A DNA stretch of 64,000 bases from Apostichopus japonicus (taxonomy: Eukaryota; Echinodermata; Holothuroidea; Aspidochirotida; Stichopodidae). Below the pieces are notes generated by a model. The model made no database searches. It was given only the letters and a program-made list of their open reading frames with translations, and had not been told where the DNA came from. Below, in pieces: positions 25,548-59,884 of this stretch. The stretch's first letter is position 1; each line of letters begins with the position of its first letter. Made by a program: the position numbers and the translations under genes. Location: positions 21,601,713-21,665,712 of the forward strand of contig NC_092574.1 of assembly GCF_037975245.1 (NCBI RefSeq), written 5' to 3'.

Positions 25548-27544
25548 AACTTACTTTCACACATTCTATTACACAGGCTCTCAAGTGCATAAGCAGTTTG
25601 CTAACAGTTTTATTTAAGTTTCATTAATTTACACACACACGCGCAAACACTGAACATTTCGTGGGACTGGTACCTACTACATTATTATGGAATATCCTAC
25701 CAAAAAGGTCGTGAATCTACAACAAGGCTAACCAATGGATGTTTTATCGATCAAGGTCAAAGAATTATTGTATCAAATAAAGTTTTATCAGGTGCACTTA
25801 TCAAACACTCAAATATTTGTCTGTGATTATGTCTAAAGTACAAGGATTTGAGTTGTCATGGATGAGGTTCAAGGTGCATTTACAATGGTTAAGACAAAGG
25901 TTTAGGACACGGGTTACTATCACTTACTATATAGGTAACACTCGTGGTTAAATTTTCCCTGTGGCACCAATTAATGATAATCCGATCATTAATCGAACTT
26001 CTGAGGTAAAAACGATTTTCTCAGTATTGGGATTTTGCCTTAAGCAAAATATAAAGATGAGAATATGTTTTTATTTATAACATATTTCCCCGGGCCCCTC
26101 ATTGGCCCTATCCCCTGGATGTGGCCTCCTAACACCCACCCCAGGCTGGTCGGGCCTTTTTTATTGATAACTCAATATTTAAACTTTAAAATCTTAAATA
26201 TTGAACACCGATATAAATATATGCAAGATAAAGTCAAACCTTGTGTTTCAACGTGTATATAAGATGAATGGACATTTCATTATCGGTCATATGCATCCGA
26301 AGACTTGAGTAAGTCTAAAATTAGTATCAGAGCTGAATACAGCATAGTCTGTTTCGTGTTAAATTTCATAGCAGTGAATTGCAATGCAAATGGTATATCT
26401 TAAGCGTGTACTGTGATTGAGATGTAAACAGAAATATGTGAAGGACTATATAGACATATAGGTTAGAGTGGATCAGTTTCAAATGATACTGAAACATTCA
26501 CACATTTGAACGGTAAACAGAAAATATTGATTCACCTTGGTTATAACTCGCCATTCTCCGAGGTATATTTTGTTTGCCTATAATGCCAGCTATTAACAAC
26601 TACAGCTTGCATATATTAGCTAGCTTCAAATCACTATTGCTTCACGTATGCCGTTTATAAAGCCAGCAAATATATGGCCTTAGAGTTTCCGTTTAAGTCG
26701 AATATTATTCTGTATTTGTTCGATATTATAAACCTCGTAATCAAAATATATAACCTGCACATGGCACATTTCATGAACTATAAATGGTAATAAATAATAA
26801 CGATTTCTTTAAAAACTATAACTGTTCTTTCACGACTATTTGTCGTAAATTCTAAGTTATAAATACTTTACATTCTTGACGAGGACATACTATTACAATA
26901 AAATAAGAATTCATTTATGTAGTCATTAATTTTATACGGTGCATGTCCAAGATGTTATTTCATGATGGTTAATTATCGGCTACCGTATACAGTTGCAGTA
27001 TACTTTTGGGGCTAATGGAGACATTTCTGATCCGAACTATATGAGCCGCGACCCCAAAAATGAGTTACCAAGGTTTGATGGTCGGTCACAGGCCAGGATA
27101 GGTCGAAACAAATTTAGATCTGATCGGTAAACAAAGCGAATGGAATCTGGCCGCAAATGTCGTCCCAATTATCACGCGATGATTTGTTTTCCAAGGTTTT
27201 TGACGTATGTGTGTGGATGTTTTGTTGTTTACTAACTTTCAGTCAGTCATTTGTATAATCAACATTGCAATCAAATAAAAGCAATGTGTATTTTAATCAT
27301 TAATTACCAGTAATTAAATATAGTGGGTGATTTTAGACCTTAGAATTTTATGGGTTGCGGCTATCCTGAATCACAACAATTAAGGGTCGCCAAAGGAAAC
27401 AGTTTGGGAAGCAGGGCCCAACAGACAAGCTATAAGAGTATAGAAAGAACGTTTTAAAACTTAGAATAATCACGGAACGAACATGCTCAGCAATCTCTAC
27501 ACCAAAACATATTTCTGTTCATGTATTTGTTTCTTTTGTTGTAC

Positions 27545-28534
27545 TTAAAGAAAAGTGCACGGAGCCTCAGGTATAAGAAAACTTTCCACATCTGGCATTT
27601 GATTCGTTTTCTGTGCACTAACAAGCCTACTATATGTTGATGCTGCAACGAACCAAAGATCGCTTAACCGATTAGAGGCTTCACCTCCCACTAAATTAAC
27701 AAATGGGTTACATGGGTCTAATAACAGAGGGCGCTGGTTTCTCGTTCTATAAGGACTAACCTCGTAGTCATGAAACATTGTCCAAAAGGTGTCGACTTCA
27801 AGAGGAAGTTCAAACATGGCGAGAAATCGATAAAACCCGCTGCAGATGTCGTTGCCTCCAGTTCTTTCCTCTCTCTCGGCAGCTCGTACGGCCAGTAGTT
27901 CAATTACGCGAAGAAAACTTTGATCGTACTCTATGCCAACATCTATGAGCTTCCCAAACCAGAAGAGCGCCAAACGAGTCAGCGCGCAGACGAACGCACT
28001 TTGTTTTCTTTCAAACTCTATCTGTACCTCTTGCATAGACGGACCAAACAGGTTAATAGGGATATGAAAGTTGGCGGGAAAGTTTTGACACAAAAACGCA
28101 ACAGCCTCAGCGTTCTGTATTATGCAGTCTTTTTTCTTTTCATGACTGGTTAACCTTTCTGAGAGGAAATTTCGAGCAACGAGGAGAGAAATGCTAACAC
28201 CAGATACCTTTAGATCTACGCCAAACTTTGTAGTCTTACATTTGAAATTGTGTGTCGTCTGCAGAAATGTAGTCAGATCATCAATGACGTCATCGAAAGG
28301 CGGGAATCTATCGTTGATGTAAACAAACAAATCTACATGTAAACGGTTTACGACCATCGTCTTTCGTACGCAATTATCACCTGGAGATATCCGATCGATT
28401 ATGTGACGGCGACGAAATTGGCTCTTGATGTCGGAGGCAACGCGACAGGCGATTTCGTTTACTCGCATCGCTTCTTCTTCATCCGGAACTAGCGAATCGG
28501 CAAACTCTCGAAGTCTCTTATTAATAGTCGTCAT
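27545..28534 (-). CDS. 2'-5'-oligoadenylate synthetase (OAS)-like protein, catalytic residues degenerate
   Basis: An intronless 329-aa frame starts at ATG 28534 (A at -3) and stops at TAA. OAS enzymes bind double-stranded RNA and make 2'-5' oligoadenylate. The C-terminal OAS1_C domain is clear: IELLAVRAAEREERTGG (211-227), GFYRFLAMF (233-241), then RPLLLDPCNPFVNLVGG (268-284), which parallels the RPVILDPADPT-N-GG motif of the family. In the N-terminal nucleotidyltransferase part, RLHVDLFVYIN (64-74) aligns with the R-S-D-A-D-L-V-V-F motif. The first metal-binding Asp is His66 and the second, Asp68, is kept. The third Asp (in F-D-V-L-P-A) aligns with Ser116 in SISLLVA. The G-S motif (GDNCVRKT, 52-59) is also altered. 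I infer a non-catalytic, possibly RNA-binding, protein. A cGAS-like or Mab-21 relative is the alternative, but the C-terminal motif favours OAS. A possible ATTAAA lies near 27293. Confidence 0.82.
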   Translation of the reverse strand: MTTINKRLREFADSLVPDEEEAMRVNEIACRVASDIKSQFRRRHIIDRISPGDNCVRKTMVVNRLHVDLFVYINDRFPPFDDVIDDLTTFLQTTHNFKCKTTKFGVDLKVSGVSISLLVARNFLSERLTSHEKKKDCIIQNAEAVAFLCQNFPANFHIPINLFGPSMQEVQIEFERKQSAFVCALTRLALFWFGKLIDVGIEYDQSFLRVIELLAVRAAEREERTGGNDICSGFYRFLAMFELPLEVDTFWTMFHDYEVSPYRTRNQRPLLLDPCNPFVNLVGGEASNRLSDLWFVAASTYSRLVSAQKTNQMPDVESFLIPEAPCTFL

Positions 28535-28559
28535 CGTCTGCTTTCAAAATTGACTGATA

Positions 28560-29750
28560 AAGAAGCAAAAGTAAGTATAGACTGTATAGTAAAGACTAAA
28601 ATAATCATAATCGGGCGCAGCCAGGAGGCATAGGGAAATGAGGGCCCAACAAACTTACATTTAATATTTACTAGCAACTTGAGGATGTTGGTACTGCCTG
28701 GCAATATATAGCGAAGACCAGCTGATGTAAGATAGGCCTAAGTGTATTTGCATGCCGCTGAACATACAGAGTTATTGTAAAGGAGCACGTTACGCGCCTC
28801 TGTATTGACATAATCTTTCCAGATTCGATATTTTTTGGAACAGCTGGCCCTTCAGAGATGAGCACGATATATCCAGAAATAAATAACACGATAACACATT
28901 TCAGCCACATATACGAATAGCTACATAACAATTTCAAACAACCAATTCAAATAATGCAGTCACTGATTTCTCGTGGGTACAACACTTTCAGTTATTTTGT
29001 CGTTTGGCATTTACATTTACTTTACAACCGAAAGAAGAGTTGTTCTCTTTAAACTTTTGTTTAGCAATCTTGTGAAGCAATCAACTTTAGCCACCGGAAT
29101 ATCCTTGACTTGAAACTTGAAAAAAAAAGTTAAGCACACATTTGAGGTTATTTAATTCACGTGTAATGGTCAAAATGCCGTTTTGCGTTATTTGACCTCT
29201 GACCTTTTTGACTCTATGATGTCAGTAGTCACACAGGCGCTACAACCCATGGCCAGGAACATAACCACCCAATTTAAAGTCCGTCGGTCTTATGGTTAAA
29301 GAACAGTTTGCGAACAGCTTCTTCCGCACAAATTTGACCTTTGACCTCATTGATCATGTGACTTCTGACATTGGTTTGTGGATTTCAGCCATTTTGTTAT
29401 TTTCGTACGCGCATACTGACCTAACTGCTGTTTTTTTGGTTATTTGACCTTGACCCTATGACGACATAAGGAAAATAAAGACACCACTGCTTTGTATAAT
29501 ACTAGATTACATGCAAGCAATAACCATTTTCTTCTGAAAAGGGCTATTAATTCTTCACCATTTCGTACTAACCATTCTCTGAAATTTACCATAACATAGG
29601 AGCTAAAAAAAAGAAAAAACTCGCTCAATATTTCAAAGGCCTGTTATGATATTGTAAAAATGCCGACGTCCAGGGGTGGGGAACTTCCTGTCTCGGAACC
29701 AACCGAAGGGGCGGGGAGGTAAGAGGGGGTGGGATGGTACAAAACAAGCA
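28560..29750. other. upstream of the OAS-like gene; T-G-A-C-C-T-rich repeat
   Basis: No exon is supported. From about 29150 to 29460 there are several TTTGACCT/TGACCTTTG words, like the repeat at 24140, suggesting a related decayed copy. No promoter motif can be fixed. Confidence 0.4.
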
Positions 29751-29753
29751 AAC

Positions 29754-29990
29754 GAGCAATCCGTAGGTCCCGGGCAGCGCAGGTGTCGAGCAATCCGCAG
29801 GTCCCTGGCAGCGCACTGAGGTGTCGAGCACATTTTACTTGTGTTTGGGTGCTCGCGCGGCGTATGCAGATTGGAGCACCGATTTTAAGTAAGCCCAAAC
29901 AGATGTCTGTATTTTCATAGCGTTGTACCGATACCTGCGCTGCCCGTGACCAGCGGATTGCTCGACACCTCAGTGCGCTGCCAGGGACCT
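29754..29990. repeat. compound tandem and inverted repeat of a GC-rich unit
   Basis: Two direct units start GAGCAATCCG at 29754 and 29788 (34 and 38 bases), both containing GGTCCC.GGCAGCGCA. An inverted copy of about 59 bases lies at 29932-29990 (GCGCTGCC...GGATTGCTCGACACCTCAG). The arms could fold into a hairpin with a loop of about 100 bases. Confidence 0.85.
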
Positions 29991-29999
29991 GATTACTAC

Positions 30000-35385: not shown

Positions 35386-35473
35386 GCAATGGAGGTAAAC
35401 GACAAAGGCAAATGAATATATATAAATGAAAATCGTAATGAGTTGGAAAATCAAGAACAGTGAAAAAACTTTC

Positions 35474-35547
35474 AGCCTCCACCGGGATTCGAACCACGGG
35501 CCTCCCGCTCTGTACGCGGACACCCTAACCACTAGGCTATGGACGCT
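35474..35547 (-). mobile_element. tRNA-like part of SINE, left arm
   Basis: The A-box TAGCCTAGTGG and B-box GGTTCGAATCC are intact. The acceptor AGCGTCC/GGAGGCT pairs 6 of 7. The anticodon loop is GTACAGA (ACA). Confidence 0.8.
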
Positions 35548-35829
35548 GATTGTATGTCCAGAGGTTCGAAACCGGTAAGGAAGATCGTAATTCCACTGTA
35601 GGCGTTTGTCACCTATATCGAACAATACTAGTTCTGTTTTTGGTGACATATTTTGCCCGACTCTAGAGATCAAACATGATGCTATCCAACTCGAAAATCA
35701 TTTGTGATCTCTAGAGTAGGGCAAAATATGTCACCAAAAACAGAACTAGTATTGTTCGATATAGGTGACAAACGCCTACAGTGGAATTACGATCTTCCTT
35801 ACCGGTTTCGAACCTCTGGACATACAATC

Positions 35830-35903
35830 AGCGTCCATAGCCTAGTGGTTAGGGTGTCCGCGTACAGAGCGGGAGGCCCGTGGTTCGAATCCCGGTGGAG
35901 GCT
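35830..35903 (+). mobile_element. tRNA-like part of SINE, right arm
   Basis: Same structure as the left arm, with both Pol III boxes intact on the plus strand, so the two arms would be transcribed away from the shared centre. Confidence 0.8.
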
Positions 35904-35947
35904 GAAAGTTTTTTCACTGTTCTTGATTTTCCAACTCATTACGATTT

Positions 35948-42172: not shown

Positions 42173-42225
42173 TCACACACCACCAGACTTCAACCAGGCT
42201 ACAAATTCATCTAGAAGTACTGGCC
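42173..42225 (-). CDS. DCUN1D4: DCUN1D4-like, exon 6 (terminal)
   Basis: Acceptor TTTCCAG|GG. The two bases complete Trp277, then [16 protein letters not shown] and TGA at 42173-42175. Confidence 0.92.
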
Positions 42226-45200
42226 CTGGAAAGAAAACAGTATTTCTATTTGAATCTGAGTTTTGTTTATCACTTTAAGGTGAGGAGAGGGCAGAGGAGA
42301 GGGTGGGGGGGGGTTGTAGAGGAGTGGAAGGGGGTACATAGGGTGGTGTAAAAAGAAGACTAAAGAATAGATGGAGAGGTGAGGGTCTTTAAAGCTGCTG
42401 GTTATTAACAACAAGATACTTCCCATCATGAAAATGCAAAAGATGTTACCATGGATATATGCAGATGCAGCTTTTGCTAGCAGTTTTAGAGAGCACCTTT
42501 AAGACCGATATCGAGAATGTTTTGCCACAATGTAAGAAAAAGTACAAAACCTCTTTCAGGATTTATTAAATACTTGAAACAAGAAATTTACACTGTCATA
42601 GAAGTCATAGAAACTACTACAAAACGAATTAATGGCAATTAATGCTCGTATTTTGCACAAATTCAGTCTTGGAAAATAATTTGCTCATCATCAGAAAATG
42701 CTGTGGTTCTGTGTGCTGATTTACATAACGCTATATTTTGCTTACAAAGTTTGATTAGTTTTTGTTGGAATTTTAGAATGAAATAACCTTTTGGTCATAA
42801 GACAGAGAAACAGAGAAGAAAAACAAAAGAACTGCTGCAAAAGCTGATTTGTTTTGAACATGTATAAAATTAAAAGTAAACCTATTGCTTTGTAAATTTA
42901 TTAATTAAGTTTTTATGTGTTGTTTCCTCCCCTTGCTTAATAGAATACATCAGAATGGACTCTGGATTACCCTCCATTCTTTGCCCACTTTGAGTTTGGT
43001 CTTTCATATATTGTGCAATGGGATACAATAGCCTCTCCTGCACTTGAATCCTTCTCTTCCCCAGAGTTCAGGAAAGTGATCTTTGGTATCGCAAGTGACA
43101 AACCTCAGAACCCACCCCCCACCACCCTCCCCCACCAATAAAAAAAACCTTTTCCCATGTTTCTGTGTTTTTCTGTACTACTATAAAAACCCATTTTAGA
43201 TCTACAATTATTTTAGCCTGCTTAATTTTTTGGTTTTTTATTATTTTCTTCAGCTTATTACCACTGCTGAGGTAAAACTTCCACAGACTCTGTGTACCAC
43301 CTTTAAACTTTCATCTGAGACCTTTCTATGCCCTTTATTCCGCCCTATTTTCGGACAGTCTCTTGCTATGTTTTTGACACACCCCCTCACTCAAACAGAC
43401 AGTAGTTTGCACCGTTGGTATCTATTGAAGGATATAATAACGTGTTCCCACTTTTGATTCAGCAGTTTTGAAGACTCTGCAATTTGTCTTTTATAAAACA
43501 CTATCGTTTCCTGTGTAAAAAAAAACACTGCTACGCATCTCGGGACTTGTATAGCAATTAAACAATTTGCAAAGCCATTTGAGATGCCAAGTTATCCCCA
43601 TACTGTACTACTCTGTGACCATAATAAAGTACTTGAAGCAGAGTGGAGTGGGGAGGGGGGTGGGGGTGGGGGGCCAGTATCAGGGACTTACATGCTCCAT
43701 CTTCATCATAGTTACTCAGGTCTGGATGGATAGCCCTGCTGAACTCCAAGATATTGCACCATTGGTCTTTGTTGAGCACTTTGTAATGAGACTGTTCCAA
43801 GAAATGATGGAATGCGCTGTGATGTGACCAGCGTCCCCCTAGTAGGAGGGCCAGCATAGCCATGGCTCTGTCTATGTCCATACTTCGCTGGTCTTTATCC
43901 TGTGAATGATCAATTTTGGCAAGAAGCGGTCTGAGCTAAGTCCATGTTAAATATACATGATGAAAAAAAGGTTTGAGGTAGATCATCTTATAAGAGTGAG
44001 GGCAGTATTTCAGTAAAGGAGGTGAGAAAAGAATACACGCAGTGTGAAGGTGCAATCAGCAAATCGAACCTGCTATGGTGTGAGCCGTTTTCCATCAAAT
44101 ACTCAAGTCCGGAAATTCAAACTCCAATAGTTCTTTTCCGATACTGCAATCAAGTCCAACTCTTGACTATGTAAGTTGTTTTTTCAAGAGAAAACTCAAC
44201 AGTTCAAATAAAAAAATAGTATATGGGATGGTTACCTTCAATGAGAACTATGACATTAGCCCGTGATTTTTTATAGCCCGTGATTTTTTTATGCGTTTTC
44301 ACTAGAGAATGACTTAAAGGCAAAAAAAAATTCACAAAACTATTTATTAACGTTAACATTTTCAGTTGATGGCATGCAATGTGGAAACGATGTTACAGTC
44401 ACTTTTAAAGTTCAAGGAGCCTTCCAAAGTTTAAAGCTACAAATCTTGAAAACTGGAAAGCTATGGTCACATTACTAGCACTCAAATTCCATTTTTTTTT
44501 TTTTTTTTTTTGGACTATAAAATTTTCAGGACTTAACTTCATCTTTTAACTGTCTATAAACATTGGGAGGTGGATCACTCCCCAGTATAGGAAAGAAAAT
44601 TATGCTTTGGCTTGTTCATTAATATGAAAATATTTCTGCCCTTTGATGCAACTCCTTGTATGATGCTCCATGGCTGTTGGCAAGTTTCCCATTAAAAGGA
44701 ATAAACAGAACTGGTACAAAATTATGAAAACTAATTTCAAGAGACAAAGAAGACTATTTACCCGAGCAAAGTCAAAGGCATATCTGTAAATTTTCTTGAA
44801 TGAGACTTGATCAGAGAGTTGCGTTCGTAGTAGATCTAGTTTCGCTTTCAGCTTTGGAACACCATCGACTCTGCGAGGTACAAAAGAAAGAAAGGAAAAG
44901 ATTAAGTGAGGTTAAAAGGAGAGTATGTAGTGAGTGTTATGCCACTTGTACAGTTAAACTACAAAATTAATTTAAAAAGAAAAAAAATGTTCCCCTCTAA
45001 GTGTTCCTCATCTTTAATTTAGCAGACAAATTAATTTTTCGGTGTTGCATCGCAAAATGCTATGCACAATGTTCAAAGTTGCTAGTATATAAGTGCAAAA
45101 CTATACAGTAGAGCAGTTTAATAAACAGAAATCATGCAAACCTACACAGTAGAGCAGTTTTATACACAGAAATTAAAAACTAAAACTAAAATGAAAACAA

Positions 45201-48200
45201 GAAATTATGAGAAAGGTCGGTTACTCTTGCAGCGAGAAAACATATCCAGTATCTCATTGCAAAAATGGTCAAACTGCCCTCTGTGTATAACTCTTTTCAA
45301 TAGGAACCATAGTGTTGTATATGAGACAAAAGTTAGCACTTTCCACACTGCTACACAAAAGTTGAATTTCTAAATTATTCCCCTGATTCTGCTAAGATTA
45401 ATACTTTTGACTTCACATCAGTTCAGGTTAGCTCTGATAAGCAATGTGATGCAAAAGAGTAATTTAAGGAGGCATGACAAAACAAAATCCTATCAAAATT
45501 AAACAGAGAGTTTTAAAATTGAACAACAAGAAATTATGACCGGTTGTTTTTTTTGGTCTCCTTTATTCTTGTCATTGCTATTTTAATGTCCCCCATTGTA
45601 CAGACAGAGAACTAATCTATGTTAGTTAAGAGACCCAAGGAGCAGGAAGCCTTACAGTAGCTTATTTGAGACCCTACCCGTGTTAGATCGTGGATGAACA
45701 CCGGCTTATTTCGAACCTTCTCTTTTCGATAAGTGTTCAGAGGATAACAAGGCAGGGGTTTGAATACACTCCCATTCCTGCTCCTGGGACTACCATTTAA
45801 CGTCCCCATCTGACGGACGAGAGAGTATACACAAGCATCTGACCACTTTTTCAAATACTGAGGTAGGCAAGCGCACCCCATTCGACATCACTGCAGTGCA
45901 GCCATGACAAACGAAGTTGTTTCAAAACCAAGTGAAGAACAGAAACAAACCCTTTCCCAAGTTCACAAGCCAGAGATAACAAATCCACGGAAGACTCCAC
46001 ACATCACCACTGCACTGCAGTGATTTTTGAATAGGTCAAGAGAATCTGCCCCCTGGCATAATTTTGATCCTGAAACCTAAGGATTGTGAGGGGGACACTC
46101 TAACCGCTGAACCAAGCCTATGTATCACTACCAACTAAGAACACTTTAACAAATAAAGAAGTTGCCATTCACAATGCAGAACAAGGAACATCTACTCAAA
46201 TACTTAATTAGGAGCAATAAAATCCTAAAGATAGCTACAGCTCACAGGGTGGAGTTCAATCCTCATCCACGAGAGAGGAATGAACTTTAACTGAGAGGAA
46301 CGACCTTTCACTGACCTTGATCGTTGATCAAGAAGGCATCTGGTGGGCCAAGTTTGAGCCACTTTTAGCTGATTGTGAAGTTGAGTTTCACCTGAATTTG
46401 GTTCTCTATTTACCAAAAGTTAAGAAGACAACAGCAGCTCACTTATTTTTAATCCTATCCATGAGATAATTTTCAAATGAACACAGGCTTTATATATCAA
46501 GCATTCTTTCTACGATGAGTGTTCATAGAGTTGTTTAGACAGGCTTGTAATTGACACACCCATTGCTGCTCTAGGAGCAAATACCCATTGATGGGACTAG
46601 AGTGCACCTCTGTATTCGACCACTTTCCTACATACTATCATCATCATCATCATAGCGTAGCCATAAAGCCAAAACCACCTCAAAATAGTCATGTAGGGAG
46701 AGACACTCCCGATTGTGTGAGAACTGACAATACTCACTGCAAATGTGACATGCCATTAATCCACTCTTGAGAGGAGAAGAAGCCCATATTTTTAGCGCCA
46801 AGGTTCCATGCTAACCCTAGCATAACAACATTTTCTGGTTCCACGCCGATATCCTCGCAGAACTTTTCCATCCCCTCTGGGCCAATTTGGTTTTCCCCCT
46901 GGGTGGTGTACTCTTGAAACCATGCCAGGCATCGTTTCTCAGAGAAGGCTTGGTGATGGAGGTGATGATGGGACGAGCTGTGCTGATGATGAACTGATCC
47001 ATGTAATGAATTTGGATGGAGATACTGTTTCAAGCTACTGAAGAGGTAAAAAACAGGAGAATTATTTTTTTTTAAATTAAAAAGTATAGTTCTTTTATAG
47101 TTGCTTAACCCATTCATCAACAATTTATTTATATTACAGAAGAACTAATAAACATGTCCCAGGATAGTGCTAAAATATAATTATTTCTGTTTGCAAAATA
47201 TGGAAGTTTTAAAGGCATATCAAAAGCCTGTGCCCCTCCCTCCCCCCCCTTCCCCTCCTTCCATCCCTTGATCTCATTACCACCAGAGTAAACAATTGGG
47301 ATTCCCTTTGCTGCCCCCTCCAAATTTCCACAGTTAAAATTACAACAGTTGTCACTGAATGTCACTGAAATGGAGACATGAACTTCGCAACAAAGAACAG
47401 TTCTCATTATTTATTATGAAATCTTTGCTACAAATAGTATGTGGTTGTTTGGTTTTTGCACGTGCTGGAAACATCAGGAGTTGAATATGTTTAACAGTGA
47501 GCAAATAATAAGTGTGTTTGTGAATGGTTCTTCCTTTAATTTTCATTTTTTTATCTATAATTTTCATTCATTTAATCCATTTTAAATTGGACATGCAATA
47601 CTTTTCTCTTTTATAAGAACTCCATAAACTTGAGACAAAGCTGAGAGAAGATTATAAAAAACAAAAGTTGTTGGTTACAATTGTGACATAATGTTTCTTA
47701 CCAGAAAAATGCACTTGCAACAACAAATGCGCTGTTTTGTCAAATATTTATGTCACAACAGCTCAGGACAACACGACAGCAAACCCCCCACAAATAGTCT
47801 GCTCATTGTCAAAGGGGACAACTTAGCCTAGGTATATAAGTGATATTACACATTCGAAGATGTACTTTTGGTCAAATCTAATGGCGATATGAGGGCCAGG
47901 GCTTAATACTTTATTTTCATTAACTCAAGAACCAGCTAACTTGCACCATCCACCAGCCACATCCTTCCATCCCCCACCCCCTGTTCTCCCACCCCCCCCC
48001 CCTTGTTCTGAATTTCACAATTTTGTTTAAAGAAAATCAAGTACTCAAATAATGTAATGACAAAAATCAAGTTCCCTCTGTTTTTTTCACTTACTTACAG
48101 CACATGTCAATTGGCTGATGGGTACAGCAGAATCCACTATCATTTAGCTGGTAAACATCTTTCATTTTAAGGCCTGCCCCCCCTCCCCTCCATGCACCTC

Positions 48201-53099: not shown

Positions 53100-53310
53100 T
53101 TGGTCAAGACGTTCGATCTATATACAGGTGACAAACGCCTTCAGTGGAAATACGACCTTCCTTACCGGTTTCGAACCTCTGGACATACAATCAGCGTCCA
53201 TAGCCTAGTGGTTAGGATGTCCGCATATAAAGCGGGAGGCCCGGGTTCGAATCCCGGTGGAGGCTGGAAGTTTTTTCACTGTTCTAAATTTTCCAACTCA
53301 TTATGGTTTC
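53100..53310 (+). mobile_element. tRNA-derived SINE, fourth copy
   Basis: The tRNA-like part is 53193-53265 with A-box TAGCCTAGTGG and B-box GGTTCGAATCC. The anticodon loop here is ATATAAA. Upstream (GACAAACGCC...CCGGTTTCGAACCTCTGG) and downstream (TTTTTTCACTGTTCTAAATT) parts match the 35704-35958 arm. It ends in the (TA)n tract at 53311. Confidence 0.85.
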
Positions 53311-53515: not shown

Positions 53516-54950
53516 TTATATAAAAGCTTTCGTCATTCTGTGGGATTTGATGCTCTTCTTAAAGTTAGAGAGAGTAGATGCTTGTCTGATTTTTAAGGGA
53601 AGTTGGTTCCATAAGCGAGGGGCAGAAACAATAAATAACCTACCCCCCCCCCCCAAGAATGTTTGGACTTAATTTCAGATAATAAAACTTGATAGCTGGA
53701 TCTTAGATTACGAGAGGGGACATAAATATGTAATAAGTCAGAAATATACATTGGACCATGTCCTTTAAGTGATTTATAAACAATAAGGAGAATTTTATAC
53801 ATAATACGATGTTTTACAGGTAGCCAGTGCAGGTTTTTTAAGACAGGGTGGATATGACAATGCTTATGAGAATGAGTTACAATACGCGCAGCTGAGTTCT
53901 GGATTAATTGGAGTCTATGAATCTGTTCTTGTGGAAGACCGAGAAGTAAGGAATTGCCCATATCCAACCTTGAAGTGATAAAAGAATGTACAATTTGTTC
54001 AGTTGCCTTATCATTTAAATATTTTCGTAATTTGTAGATGCCTCTCAGATGAAATGCAGCAGAACTTGTTATTTTGGAAATGTGGCGTTTCATAGACATA
54101 CTGGAATAAAAAATTACACCAAGATTACGCGCATGAGTGGAAGGGCGAACCTGAACATTACCAATTGATATGCATGGGATATTAATTTTAGCAATCTGAT
54201 GACAAGAACCAAAAAGCAAAAACTCAGTTTTTTCTTCATTAAGCTTCAAAAAATTACGTCTCATCCACAAACGGATATCACTGGTGCAACTTTCAAGGCA
54301 TCTGATGGCTTTTACACTCTTATCTTGAGAAGGACTGAAATCAATGTAAATCTGGGTATCGTCTGCATGACCGTGATAAGAAATATTGTGCTTCATCAAA
54401 ATTCTACGAATTGGAAGTGTATAAATAGGGAACCACTGGGGTCCAAGGACTGAACCCTGTGGAACTGAGTATTCCATGTATACAGGATTGGATAATTTAT
54501 CCCCAATACAAACAATTGAGGTCGCCTGTTTAAATATGAGTTGCACCACTCCAGAGCAACAGCATCTATCCCCACGAAACTATTCAAACGCGAAAGCAGA
54601 ATTTCATGGTCCACAGTGTCGAATGCGGCACTCAAATCTAAAAGGACCATAGCCACTATTCTACCATTATCCATTTCAGAAAGTATATCGCTGCTTACTC
54701 GAAGTAGAGCAGTCTCAATACCATGATTAGCCCTATAAGCAGATTGAAATGGATCATAGACATCATTGGTATTCATATGATCAGTAATGCGACTAGATAT
54801 AATGCGTTGAATAGTTTTCCCCAAGAATTTTAGGTTTGCCATGCACTGGTCTGTAATTCTTAAAACTTTCTTTATTTAAGCCATCTTTCTTAAGAAGTGG
54901 CCGAATATGTGCAACCTTAAGGCTATCAGGAAGAACACCTTGTTGAATGG

Positions 54951-56409: not shown

Positions 56410-58990
56410 CTGTTTCCGAGTGACAGTGACATGTTCATTAAATTTATTCGACTGAAACCGAGTCAAACATATAATAAATGGATTCAACAAAATGAAATCA
56501 ATATCTTTTCCCGCTATGATTTATCATGTAAGTTGACTATTTTACTACTGACAGCACTCATAAGCCATCGTGACCAGTTGAAGGTTGCTAAGCTCCTTTC
56601 AATGTGAAACGCTTCTCGACATTTTTTATATTTTATTTTTGGGGGTAACATCATATTTATCTGAAGAATTATAATCACCTTATTTCAACGTCGTTATTCA
56701 AAAACTACAGTAGAGTCGCGAAAAGGGAGGGGAGGTGTGGGCGTAGGCGTTACTCGTGAGGGTTGAGGGGACTGAGGGGACCTGGATTGATGGCTTCAAT
56801 GGCGTCCGTCTTGATCTATGTATATCATTTGAGAGACATAATATATATCACCCACCACCAAAAGACCCGACAAACTCCAATCCTACCCTCTCCCCCACGG
56901 ACTCCCAACCCCACCCAAGCGCTTGATCCCACTCCCTACACTACTCCCAATACCTCTCTCCACCCTACTTCCAGATTTTGTTGAAAAAAGTTATCTTATG
57001 TAATAATCAACAATGGTGCTCGAATTCTTATCCGCACAGATCCCCCACCACACCGACAGTCCCCCACCCCCCCCCCCATCCGTCTTTCACACACTTATAT
57101 AAAGAACAGTTGTATATAGGCCTACCTTGGTGGAGGGAGGTGTGTAGCTTTATGTCCCCTGAAAACTTCCATTGGTTGTATAAACTATAGAAAATGGAAC
57201 AAAACCTAATTAAAATTAATTTATTTCCCGTCAATCTGACATGATCTGTGTAACTTTATAGAGCTACCTCATGGACAATATTGGCAGAAACACTTTCATT
57301 GATAACATTTCTGTTACTGTGGGAAAGATGTAAACAATATTTTCATTACTACCCTACCAGTGTAACTCACAAAAACAACATTGCTTGTAATGTACAGCTT
57401 TATATGCTCGTTACTATGAGAGGGAAGGGGGAGGGGAGGTGGAGGGGTGTGGTGCATTCCGCAACCTGAAAAAATCAGTCAAGTTTGACGTAGAGTGGAG
57501 TGCAAGCAGACAGTGAACGGGACAGGGGAGGGGGGGGGCCATTTTGAAGTACCAACATCGCACCTGTTTATACTACATATCCGAGGCAAAATTAGGGGGG
57601 AAGAAAAGGGGGAAATCCCTTACATTGGAGTCGACTTTAACGACCTCATCCTATTTAAAATGCTGCATCCGCCCCTGTTTCTCTTCAAAAAAAAAGAAGA
57701 CGCCACCTTATATAAACATAAGAATATTTGAATTTCTCATATATATTCTAGTGGTCAATTTTGCGAATTTCCAAAAAAAAGAAGAAAAAAAAGACTAGGT
57801 CAATACACCGTGAATGGACTCTCCCTGTATTGATCACACCACGGCAGTTTTAAAATTTAAAATGTAAAATCTCTGTTTGTTTTTTATATTAGCGGGATAC
57901 CGTTGCTCTGTAACAGGGAACATAGTAATTCCAATTAGTGGTATCGAAGACACATCCGGGATAAAGGGAATTTTTGGCGACAAAGTAAACAGACCAGAGA
58001 CAGCAAATTAATCGTTACTTGGAAACGTACAACAACGCAGAGAAAGTTATTATAATTATTCTAAGAGATATTTGCACGAAAAAAAAAAAAAACACAACTG
58101 AGATAAACCTGATGAGATGGAGATGTTGTAAAAAAAGCTTTGGGTTTTGTGCATCTTTGGAAAGAGAGTATGGGACAAGATTGAGGAATGAGAACGTGGG
58201 AAATATTACCTGTCTCTTCAGATGGCATAGTATCATCAGTGAAGTAACACTAACGAGGATGAGAAACTATCACAGGAACTATATTTTGCATTTTGAAGAA
58301 AACTATCTGCGTAAATTTGTTTTCACAAATTGGATTTTATTGACTAAATTAATTTACACTTTTTGCTCATTTGTGAAAGTAAAGTATTGGATCACGGCAT
58401 AGTTAATTCAAGACATTTTAGGAGTTTTGTTCACGAGATAAGCAACACCAAAAAAATTGCGTGAGTTTTGGCATCTTCTCTATAGGATGATAATCGTCTG
58501 GAACGAGGAAATTTCGACGTTATCTATAGACTGTCTTCCAAACTTGGATGTATTAGATAAGAACACATTTCTATTTTTTTCCCTTCAGTTTTTATTGTTT
58601 GATGAATTGTTTCAAGTGATCTGCTTTTCCAGATTCGTTGTGCACCCTGAAAACGATTGAAAACCGTTGCAATTGAATAATTTATGGAAGAAACGTCTGG
58701 AAAACTTAAAGCTAGTATTTTACATGGAGCCGATACTATAAGTTTTCTCATATCGGACGTGGTGTGACGACAATATTTGTTCTTTGTTTTATTCACATGA
58801 ACATTGATCGCCTAAGAGGAGCAGCTCCTGCAAACGAAGTGAAACTTAAACAGAAGACTTCGGGAATTGAACGTCACAAAATAACCTCTGTTTAGCAACA
58901 ATATCTATATCAAATCTATGTAAATATCTTATATTTATTCTACTATATATTTTATTAATATTTCGTTTATTTGTATGAGAACGCAATATC
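56410..58990. other. no gene seen
   Basis: AT-rich, with C-runs near 57066 and G-runs near 57527. Open frames at 57495-57798 and 58019-58402 lack domain signatures. The last kilobase may be the 5' untranslated and promoter region of the gene at 58994. Confidence 0.4.
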
Positions 58991-58993
58991 AAG

Positions 58994-59884
58994 ATGCAAC
59001 ATCTAAAGCCGAACGACGCTGCTCTGGAAGCGAGAGACAAACTCAATGAAACTACGAATCGTAGTCTCAATACCCAGTCGTTCGATCGTGCATGGCAGCG
59101 AGTTTACGGAACAAAGGAGTATCGTCCCTCTTGGATAGGGAGTTTACCTACACCAAGACCCCGCCCTACTAACAAGTCACACGGAGAGAAACCGATACTC
59201 CGAGTGAATGACGAACCGTTACTCGATAACACCGATGAAGTAATTGCCAAATTTCCTAAAGAAGATCGACAAAAGGTCAAGGAATTTTATGATCTTCAAG
59301 TTCAATGTATACCGACAGAGCATCGCAGTAAGAGGATTCAGGAACCACTCCTCCTTAATGGTAAGGTCGTTCCCAGAGAGAGAGAACTCGGAAAATGGCG
59401 GGAAATGATCGAATTGGAAGAGGTGGACGGTGTTACAGGAGAACCGATGTACAATCGGGTTGTCAAGGCAACCAACGTTCCAAATTGGATGAATAGTAAC
59501 AGTTATTGGCGAGCCAATAACAAAAATGACACTTTCGAACGTATGGATCAGACTATTTCACCCAGCACTTCAGGAAAAATTCGAGAAAAACAAGTTATCC
59601 ATACGGCAAAATATGATTTGGTCGGAAAATACGAAAACAAGATAGCACCACTAAATTTGAAGTTAGAAGGGAAAAAAGAATTGCCGAGCAAACGCGAATT
59701 GAAGAAATGGGGTGACCAACTAGAGATACCGCAAAAGCTAGAAATGGAAGATTATATTTCAGATTTAGATTCTAATGAGGAGCTAAACAGAGGAAGTATG
59801 TCAGAAAAGAGAAGAAAATTTAACTCAGTGTTGAAACAAGCTGATGTTCCTGGCTTTTTCTCTCACAATAATTACTGGAAATAG
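58994..59884 (+). CDS. intronless 296-aa protein with a duplicated module, function unknown
   Basis: The frame starts at ATG 58994 (A at -3) and ends TAG. I do not recognise the family. It is hydrophilic and highly charged, without signal peptide or membrane segment. Two related modules are visible. Module 1 (about 116-172) begins EPLLLNGKVVPRERELGKW and ends VPNWMNSNSYWR. Module 2 (about 218-296) begins APLNLKLEGKKELPSKREL and ends ADVPGFFSHNNYWK. The shared pattern is L-x-L/N-x-G-K ... P-x-x-R-E-L-x-K-W ... V-P-x-(5)-N-x-Y-W. A possible third, weaker piece lies at 29-48 (SFDRAWQRVYGTKEYRPSWI). Consistent codon use and a single long frame in AT-rich DNA argue that it is real. A cytosolic or cytoskeletal role is only a guess. 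Confidence 0.85.
   Translation: MQHLKPNDAALEARDKLNETTNRSLNTQSFDRAWQRVYGTKEYRPSWIGSLPTPRPRPTNKSHGEKPILRVNDEPLLDNTDEVIAKFPKEDRQKVKEFYDLQVQCIPTEHRSKRIQEPLLLNGKVVPRERELGKWREMIELEEVDGVTGEPMYNRVVKATNVPNWMNSNSYWRANNKNDTFERMDQTISPSTSGKIREKQVIHTAKYDLVGKYENKIAPLNLKLEGKKELPSKRELKKWGDQLEIPQKLEMEDYISDLDSNEELNRGSMSEKRRKFNSVLKQADVPGFFSHNNYWK

Follow-up and report, generated by a model that had tools for sequence, protein, structure and literature searches.

The 64-kb stretch of DNA analysed here (the window) contains an intact open reading frame (ORF) of 329 codons on the minus strand (27545..28534, stop codon included), and its product was assigned to the OAS superfamily as a pseudo-nucleotidyltransferase on the basis of ORF statistics, a Pfam OAS1_C match and hhalign. 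We propose that this ORF encodes a full-length OAS-superfamily protein that would retain the two-lobed OAS fold, has probably lost catalysis and would act through binding; we give this reading a probability of about 0.55. The coordinates in the first-pass annotation, which named no strand, were correct. All features of the OAS-like gene given below lie on the minus strand.

Family membership and fold of the ORF protein

A Pfam scan of the ORF protein returned only OAS1_C (PF10421), at 31.9 bits (E 1.2e-7) over residues 163-297 (27644..28048), compared with a Pfam gathering score of 19.9 bits. The OAS superfamily is defined by OAS1_C (PMC10732462), and the profile search, set beforehand as a check that might overturn the assignment, placed the protein inside this family. 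A sequence search of the PDB gave seven chains at E values up to 1, all of which were OAS1, OAS2, OAS3 or OASL, with OAS1 (4ig8) as the top match (E 8e-5). Furthermore, the alignment by hhalign to a profile of three sequences (human OAS1 and two OAS2 domains) was collinear over residues 6-285 (E 4e-7), with a score of 54.6 versus a best score of 26.9 among 100 shuffles. The ORF protein and OAS1 were 24% identical in a MAFFT alignment. The OAS1_C match and the hhalign alignment indicate that the protein is a member of the OAS superfamily, as had been proposed.

Residues 1-157 (28064..28534) were identified as a putative N-terminal lobe with a nucleotidyltransferase core by a single-sequence AlphaFold2 model and a structure search. 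The secondary structure elements in the model were, in order, helices 3-14 and 19-41, strands 46-51 and 68-73, helix 80-95, and strands 98-101, 105-110 and 113-121. Among the matches listed in the structure search, 50 out of 50 were nucleotidyltransferases, and the match spanned residues 1-157; they included OASL, OAS1, OAS2 and cGAS, with NF90-NF45 in the top rows. The mean predicted local distance difference test score (pLDDT) of the model was 49.5, with blocks 81-110 at 70-83, and the C-terminal lobe folded alone gave 42.3. A nucleotidyltransferase lobe preceding OAS1_C is thus suggested by hhalign over residues 6-285 and by this low-confidence model together.

Other families were also considered. 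Neither the DZF family nor the Mab-21 profile (PF03281; cGAS/cGLR) was matched in the Pfam scan, in which only OAS1_C was listed at E values up to 10 and in which the HMMER filters drop most weak matches. No ubiquitin family was found by Pfam in the ORF, whose frame ends at residue 329 and may be followed by further downstream exons. A PADLOC 'Cyclase' match (E 0.062, residues 1-76) and an NCBIfam archaeal CCA transferase match (E 0.12, residues 11-75) were rejected as too weak. No relatives were found in viral_contigs (P0001, alignment A1 and the OAS-only alignment A2), genome_contigs (A2 and P0001) or phages (tblastn), which says little because these collections hold viral or prokaryotic DNA.

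Degeneration of the active site

Two of the three metal-binding aspartates of OAS1 (D75, D77 and D148) were absent from the ORF protein, in which the catalytic triad reads H66, D68 and S116. The degenerate D-x-D motif, H66-V67-D68 (28331..28339), was paired with D75-A-D77 of OAS1 by both MAFFT and hhalign, so that D75 is replaced by H66 and D77 is kept as D68. The GS motif, GGSS at residues 61-64 of OAS1, reads GDNC at residues 52-55 (28370..28381; MAFFT, hhalign and residue mapping), with G62 and S63 changed to D53 and N54, respectively. In addition, residue mapping put L190 (27965..27967) in place of OAS1 K213, which we take to be the donor-ATP lysine.

The place of the third aspartate (D148 of OAS1, D481 of OAS2) is occupied by S116 (28187..28189) according to hhalign and the structure rows. 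In hhalign, GVSISLLVA was paired with GVEFDVLPA, aligning S116 with D148, and S116 lies on the last core strand (113-121) of the AlphaFold2 model. The structure rows give only the ends of each matched range, and residue pairing was therefore reckoned without gaps: the OAS2 row ends at 123 = 488, which makes S116 equivalent to D481 if the strand is ungapped, and in each of five Cid1 rows, whose ends lie at 120-122, S116 falls at 160, presumably the third aspartate of Cid1, D160. The reckoning does not hold exactly for all rows, since it gave 293 for Trf4 (3nyb), which we take to be one off its third aspartate; for TUT7 (5w0b, 5w0m) it gave 1119. MAFFT left S116 unpaired with D148 and instead aligned residues further along the protein (around KKKDCII) with that strand; this placement was rejected because hhalign and the structure model both favour S116. 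Even with a different third acid, the metal site would be incomplete, because H66 occupies the first metal place. D481 is the third catalytic aspartate of OAS2, and the single loss of D148 or D481 abolishes catalysis (PMC13372824).

Seven residues of the acceptor pocket have been listed for the pig enzyme OAS1 (PMC6307210, section 13; L150 and T191 are the human numbering of pig L149 and T190). Of these, two were kept (Q194 as Q171 and L150 as L118), four were changed, and R130 had no aligned equivalent. Across the columns identical in human OAS1, pig OAS1 and OAS2 domain 2, all active OAS sequences, the ORF protein kept 36 of the 108 mapped; by region, 5/16 were kept around the GS and D-x-D motifs, 4/10 around the third aspartate and 8/15 around RPVILDP. 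From these residues, 2'-5' oligoadenylate (2-5A) synthesis by the ORF protein appears very unlikely. The loss of two catalytic aspartates and the altered GS motif that had been noted at first pass were both recovered here, and neither the sequence-profile alignment nor the low-confidence model offered three acidic residues in the active site.

The RNA groove and the R195 switch

Half of the six basic groove residues compared were lost. Three are still basic (K42 = K37, K66 = R57, K199 = R176) and three are not (K60 = P51, R195 = I172, K204 = F181); K42 and K60 are residues that we take to belong to the double-stranded RNA (dsRNA) groove of OAS1. Residue mapping placed I172 at 28019..28021, and the switch glutamate E233 is kept as E212. 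The net charge of the ORF protein was -5.0, versus +10.7 for human OAS1. In OAS1, R195 is both an RNA backbone contact and an allosteric switch: dsRNA brings K66 to the place of R195 at E233, and R195 turns toward the RNA (PMC13372824). A somewhat different switch was obtained by simulation (PMC11359028).

These residues bear on the alternative that the protein is a non-catalytic, OASL-like dsRNA sensor, decoy or scaffold whose classical groove would bind viral dsRNA. Retention of K37, R57, R176 and E212 is in its favour, and there are precedents: catalytically dead OASL binds dsRNA and acts, its OAS-like domain being slightly negative yet able to bind (PMC4446440), and OAS2 p69 with a broken catalytic site (D481A) still restricts a coronavirus (PMC13372824). 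On the other hand, R195, K204 and K60 have given way to isoleucine, phenylalanine and proline in an acidic protein, residue swaps at R195/K199/K205 of OASLs remove activity (PMC6019448, whose K205 is K204 in the chain sequence), and invertebrate OAS generally have fewer basic interface residues (PMC6307210, section 13). Binding of dsRNA via the classical groove is therefore possible, but the case for it is weakened, and the sensor explanation is judged unlikely, albeit less so than the alternatives taken up below. The first-pass annotation had proposed a non-catalytic dsRNA binder; its non-catalytic half stands, whereas the case for dsRNA binding is weakened by I172, F181, P51 and the acidity of the protein.

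Reading frame, gene structure and coding evidence

The ORF runs from an ATG at 28534 to a TAA at 27545-27547 and encodes 329 amino acids. Its frame, 332 codons from stop to stop, exceeds the length expected by chance: when 100 windows were simulated with matching dinucleotide composition, their longest ORFs had a median length of 145.5 codons and reached 217 codons at most. The G+C contents at the three codon positions were 52, 37 and 42%, which is compatible with coding. The coding part is a single exon without an intron, whereas vertebrate OAS cores consist of several exons. A candidate 3' splice site (CTTACTTTTGCTTCTTTATCAG, 28554..28575), seen by eye as a polypyrimidine stretch and a CAG ending at 28554, lies 19 bases before the ATG, and a 5' untranslated region (UTR) intron upstream of the ATG is possible; no donor for such an intron was identified by eye. 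An in-frame TGA separates the candidate acceptor from the ATG, and 28534 is therefore the likely start. The earlier description of the gene as intronless thus applies to its coding part but may not extend to the 5' UTR. A possible poly(A) signal, ATTAAA (27292..27297), occurs 247 bases after the stop codon.

The gene might instead be a duplicate or retrocopy that has lately lost its function and is drifting, with a frame left open by luck. This explanation draws on the single coding exon, the lost active-site residues and the lack of evidence of expression, and OAS pseudogenes do occur in sponges. It is countered by the intact frame of 329 codons: when neutral drift was simulated from the present frame (400 runs per level, indels left out), only 7.2% and 1.0% of runs stayed open at 0.1 and 0.2 substitutions per site, respectively, which favours constraint without proving it. 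The possible 5' UTR intron and the absence, by eye, of a long poly(A) tract after the stop also argue against it. We regard a drifting copy as doubtful, and slightly more so than a dsRNA sensor.

The gene is flanked, at distances of about 120 and 100 bases, by a 21-base direct repeat (81% alike; 27406-27426 and 28634-28654), which could be due to chance or to an old target-site duplication. The repeat was not taken as evidence for a retrocopy, because the same 5 kb contains 12 further families of direct repeats of comparable size and because 16 out of 100 shuffles matched the derived pattern as often. No second OAS-like copy was found in the window by tblastn (best other match, E 0.86), and six open frames near the gene had no significant Pfam domain.

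Comparison with known OAS proteins and related folds

The likeness to the active enzyme OAS1 (PDB 4ig8) comprises OAS1_C, the RPxxLDPxxP motif and the alignment over residues 6-285; unlike OAS1, the ORF protein is acidic rather than basic and has lost the active site and half of the six RNA contacts. The parallel drawn at first pass with vertebrate OASL was well founded in that the OAS-like domain of human OASL (PDB 4xq7) and the ORF protein share an incomplete catalytic triad. However, OASL has lost only the third acid (T152; PMC4446440) and keeps the RNA-groove basic residues, whereas the ORF protein has lost two metal ligands and half of the six groove residues. OASL also carries two tandem C-terminal ubiquitin-like domains and enhances RIG-I signalling (PMC4446440); the ORF has no ubiquitin-like tail, and therefore the OASL/RIG-I mechanism cannot simply be transferred to it. 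Three aspartates switch OASL between enzymatic and non-enzymatic forms in birds and mammals (PMC6019448). The OAS proteins of invertebrates (sponge, coral, oyster, Lingula and acorn worm) likewise have no ubiquitin-like domains (PMC6307210, section 12). The ORF protein differs from the OAS of sponges in that the latter have been described as enzymatically active (PMC2852836, PMC6307210).

OAS2 domain 1 is likewise a catalytically degenerate OAS domain and slightly acidic (-2.0, isoelectric point 6.06). It is not known to have a separate catalytic role, sits in a two-domain protein, and keeps D75, with threonine for D77 and glutamate for D148. In contrast, the ORF protein has lost the first and third aspartates and kept the second.

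The NF90-NF45 dimerisation domains (DZF), which have a nucleotidyltransferase fold without catalysis, occupied the top rows of the structure search. The ORF protein might be an accessory subunit, a dead nucleotidyltransferase paired with an active relative as NF45 is with NF90. However, Pfam gave no DZF match and the C-terminal half is OAS1_C, and such a role seems distinctly unlikely.

Other features of the window

At 29753-29991, a G+C-rich unit of 29-36 bases (CGAGCAATCCGYAGGTCCC...) is repeated both in tandem and in inverted orientation; the complementarity of the arms reaches 100% over 33 bases. A DCUN1D4-like gene (42194-43935, minus strand) was recognised from an exon frame at 43558-43935 (E 1.7e-28 to DCN1-like protein 4; Pfam Cullin_binding), and its last exon may lie at 42194. 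An upstream frame at 46734-47144, which had no Pfam match, presumably resembles the N-terminal part of this gene. Judging by this neighbour of the OAS-like gene, the DNA probably comes from an animal, which might be the marine invertebrate suggested at first pass. A long interspersed nuclear element (LINE)-type reverse transcriptase (53593-54875, minus strand) had RVT_1 split over two overlapping frames and is therefore probably broken. Sequences resembling tRNAs were found at 35473-35904 and 53193-53266: a tRNA-Tyr-like copy and two tRNA-Cys-like copies, the latter two face to face at a distance of about 280 bases. The frames over these copies have similar translations and stop close to (TA)n runs, which suggests that the copies are tRNA-derived repeats. 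For a 301-residue open frame (58979-59884, plus strand), neither Pfam (at E 0.1) nor a sequence search of the PDB (at E 1) gave a match.

Discussion

According to the explanation that we favour, an OAS-superfamily protein would have kept its two lobes, whereas two metal ligands out of three have been replaced, together with the donor-ATP lysine, the GS motif and the larger part of the acceptor pocket. Because the active site has been taken apart, the protein probably works by binding rather than by a 2-5A signal. It would be made and kept by selection, and its ligand would be RNA, a nucleotide or another protein, for example an active OAS.

Several observations weigh against this explanation. 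Most of the hhalign signal comes from the C-terminal half, and the N-terminal half (residues 1-160) alone scored 23.0, with 2 out of 100 shuffles higher. The confidence of the AlphaFold2 model is low, down to 37 and 45 in blocks 51-70. Moreover, erosion is not stronger in the active-site stretches than across the protein as a whole; since only 36 of the 108 columns were kept overall, the loss of activity rests on the critical residues and not on a local excess of change. Judged by its sequence, a working enzyme would be expected to keep its active-site stretches best, and here they are eroded like the remainder.

A more specific form of binding is conceivable, although we consider it a long shot, in which the pseudo-OAS is fixed in an 'RNA-bound' shape and permanently shows the activated surface to a partner other than RNA. 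With isoleucine at the R195 place and R57 and E212 kept, only the RNA-bound type of salt bridge, R57-E212, could form. If this is true, an animal lineage that lacks interferon would have turned an RNA-triggered OAS enzyme into a protein for constitutive docking. It is highly improbable that the protein remains enzymatic through different metal ligands or by making a different product. The retained D68 and other acids nearby in sequence, D107 and D136, speak for this; against it stand the combined change of H66, S116, L190 and the GS motif, and the position of D107 on a neighbouring strand (105-110) and of D136 in a helix (131-151) of the model.

Catalytically dead OAS proteins are already known, and the ORF protein is a more degenerate case. 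A literature search by title and abstract, with subscription papers mostly outside its coverage, found no description of a catalytically dead or intronless invertebrate OAS. As far as this search shows, what would be new are the loss of other aspartates and of the donor lysine and the R195 switch, the absence of a ubiquitin-like tail in the ORF, the single coding exon and, if the guess about the host holds, a non-vertebrate origin. Most of the known dead OAS proteins are from vertebrates (OASL, and OAS2 and OAS3 domains), amid interferon, RNase L and RIG-I. For 12 invertebrates that have OAS, neither RNase L nor interferon is listed in Table 1 of PMC6307210. If the proposed explanation is true, a dead OAS kept in such an animal would mean that catalysis can be lost outside the interferon system, and it would offer a route to ask about roles of OAS proteins apart from 2-5A.
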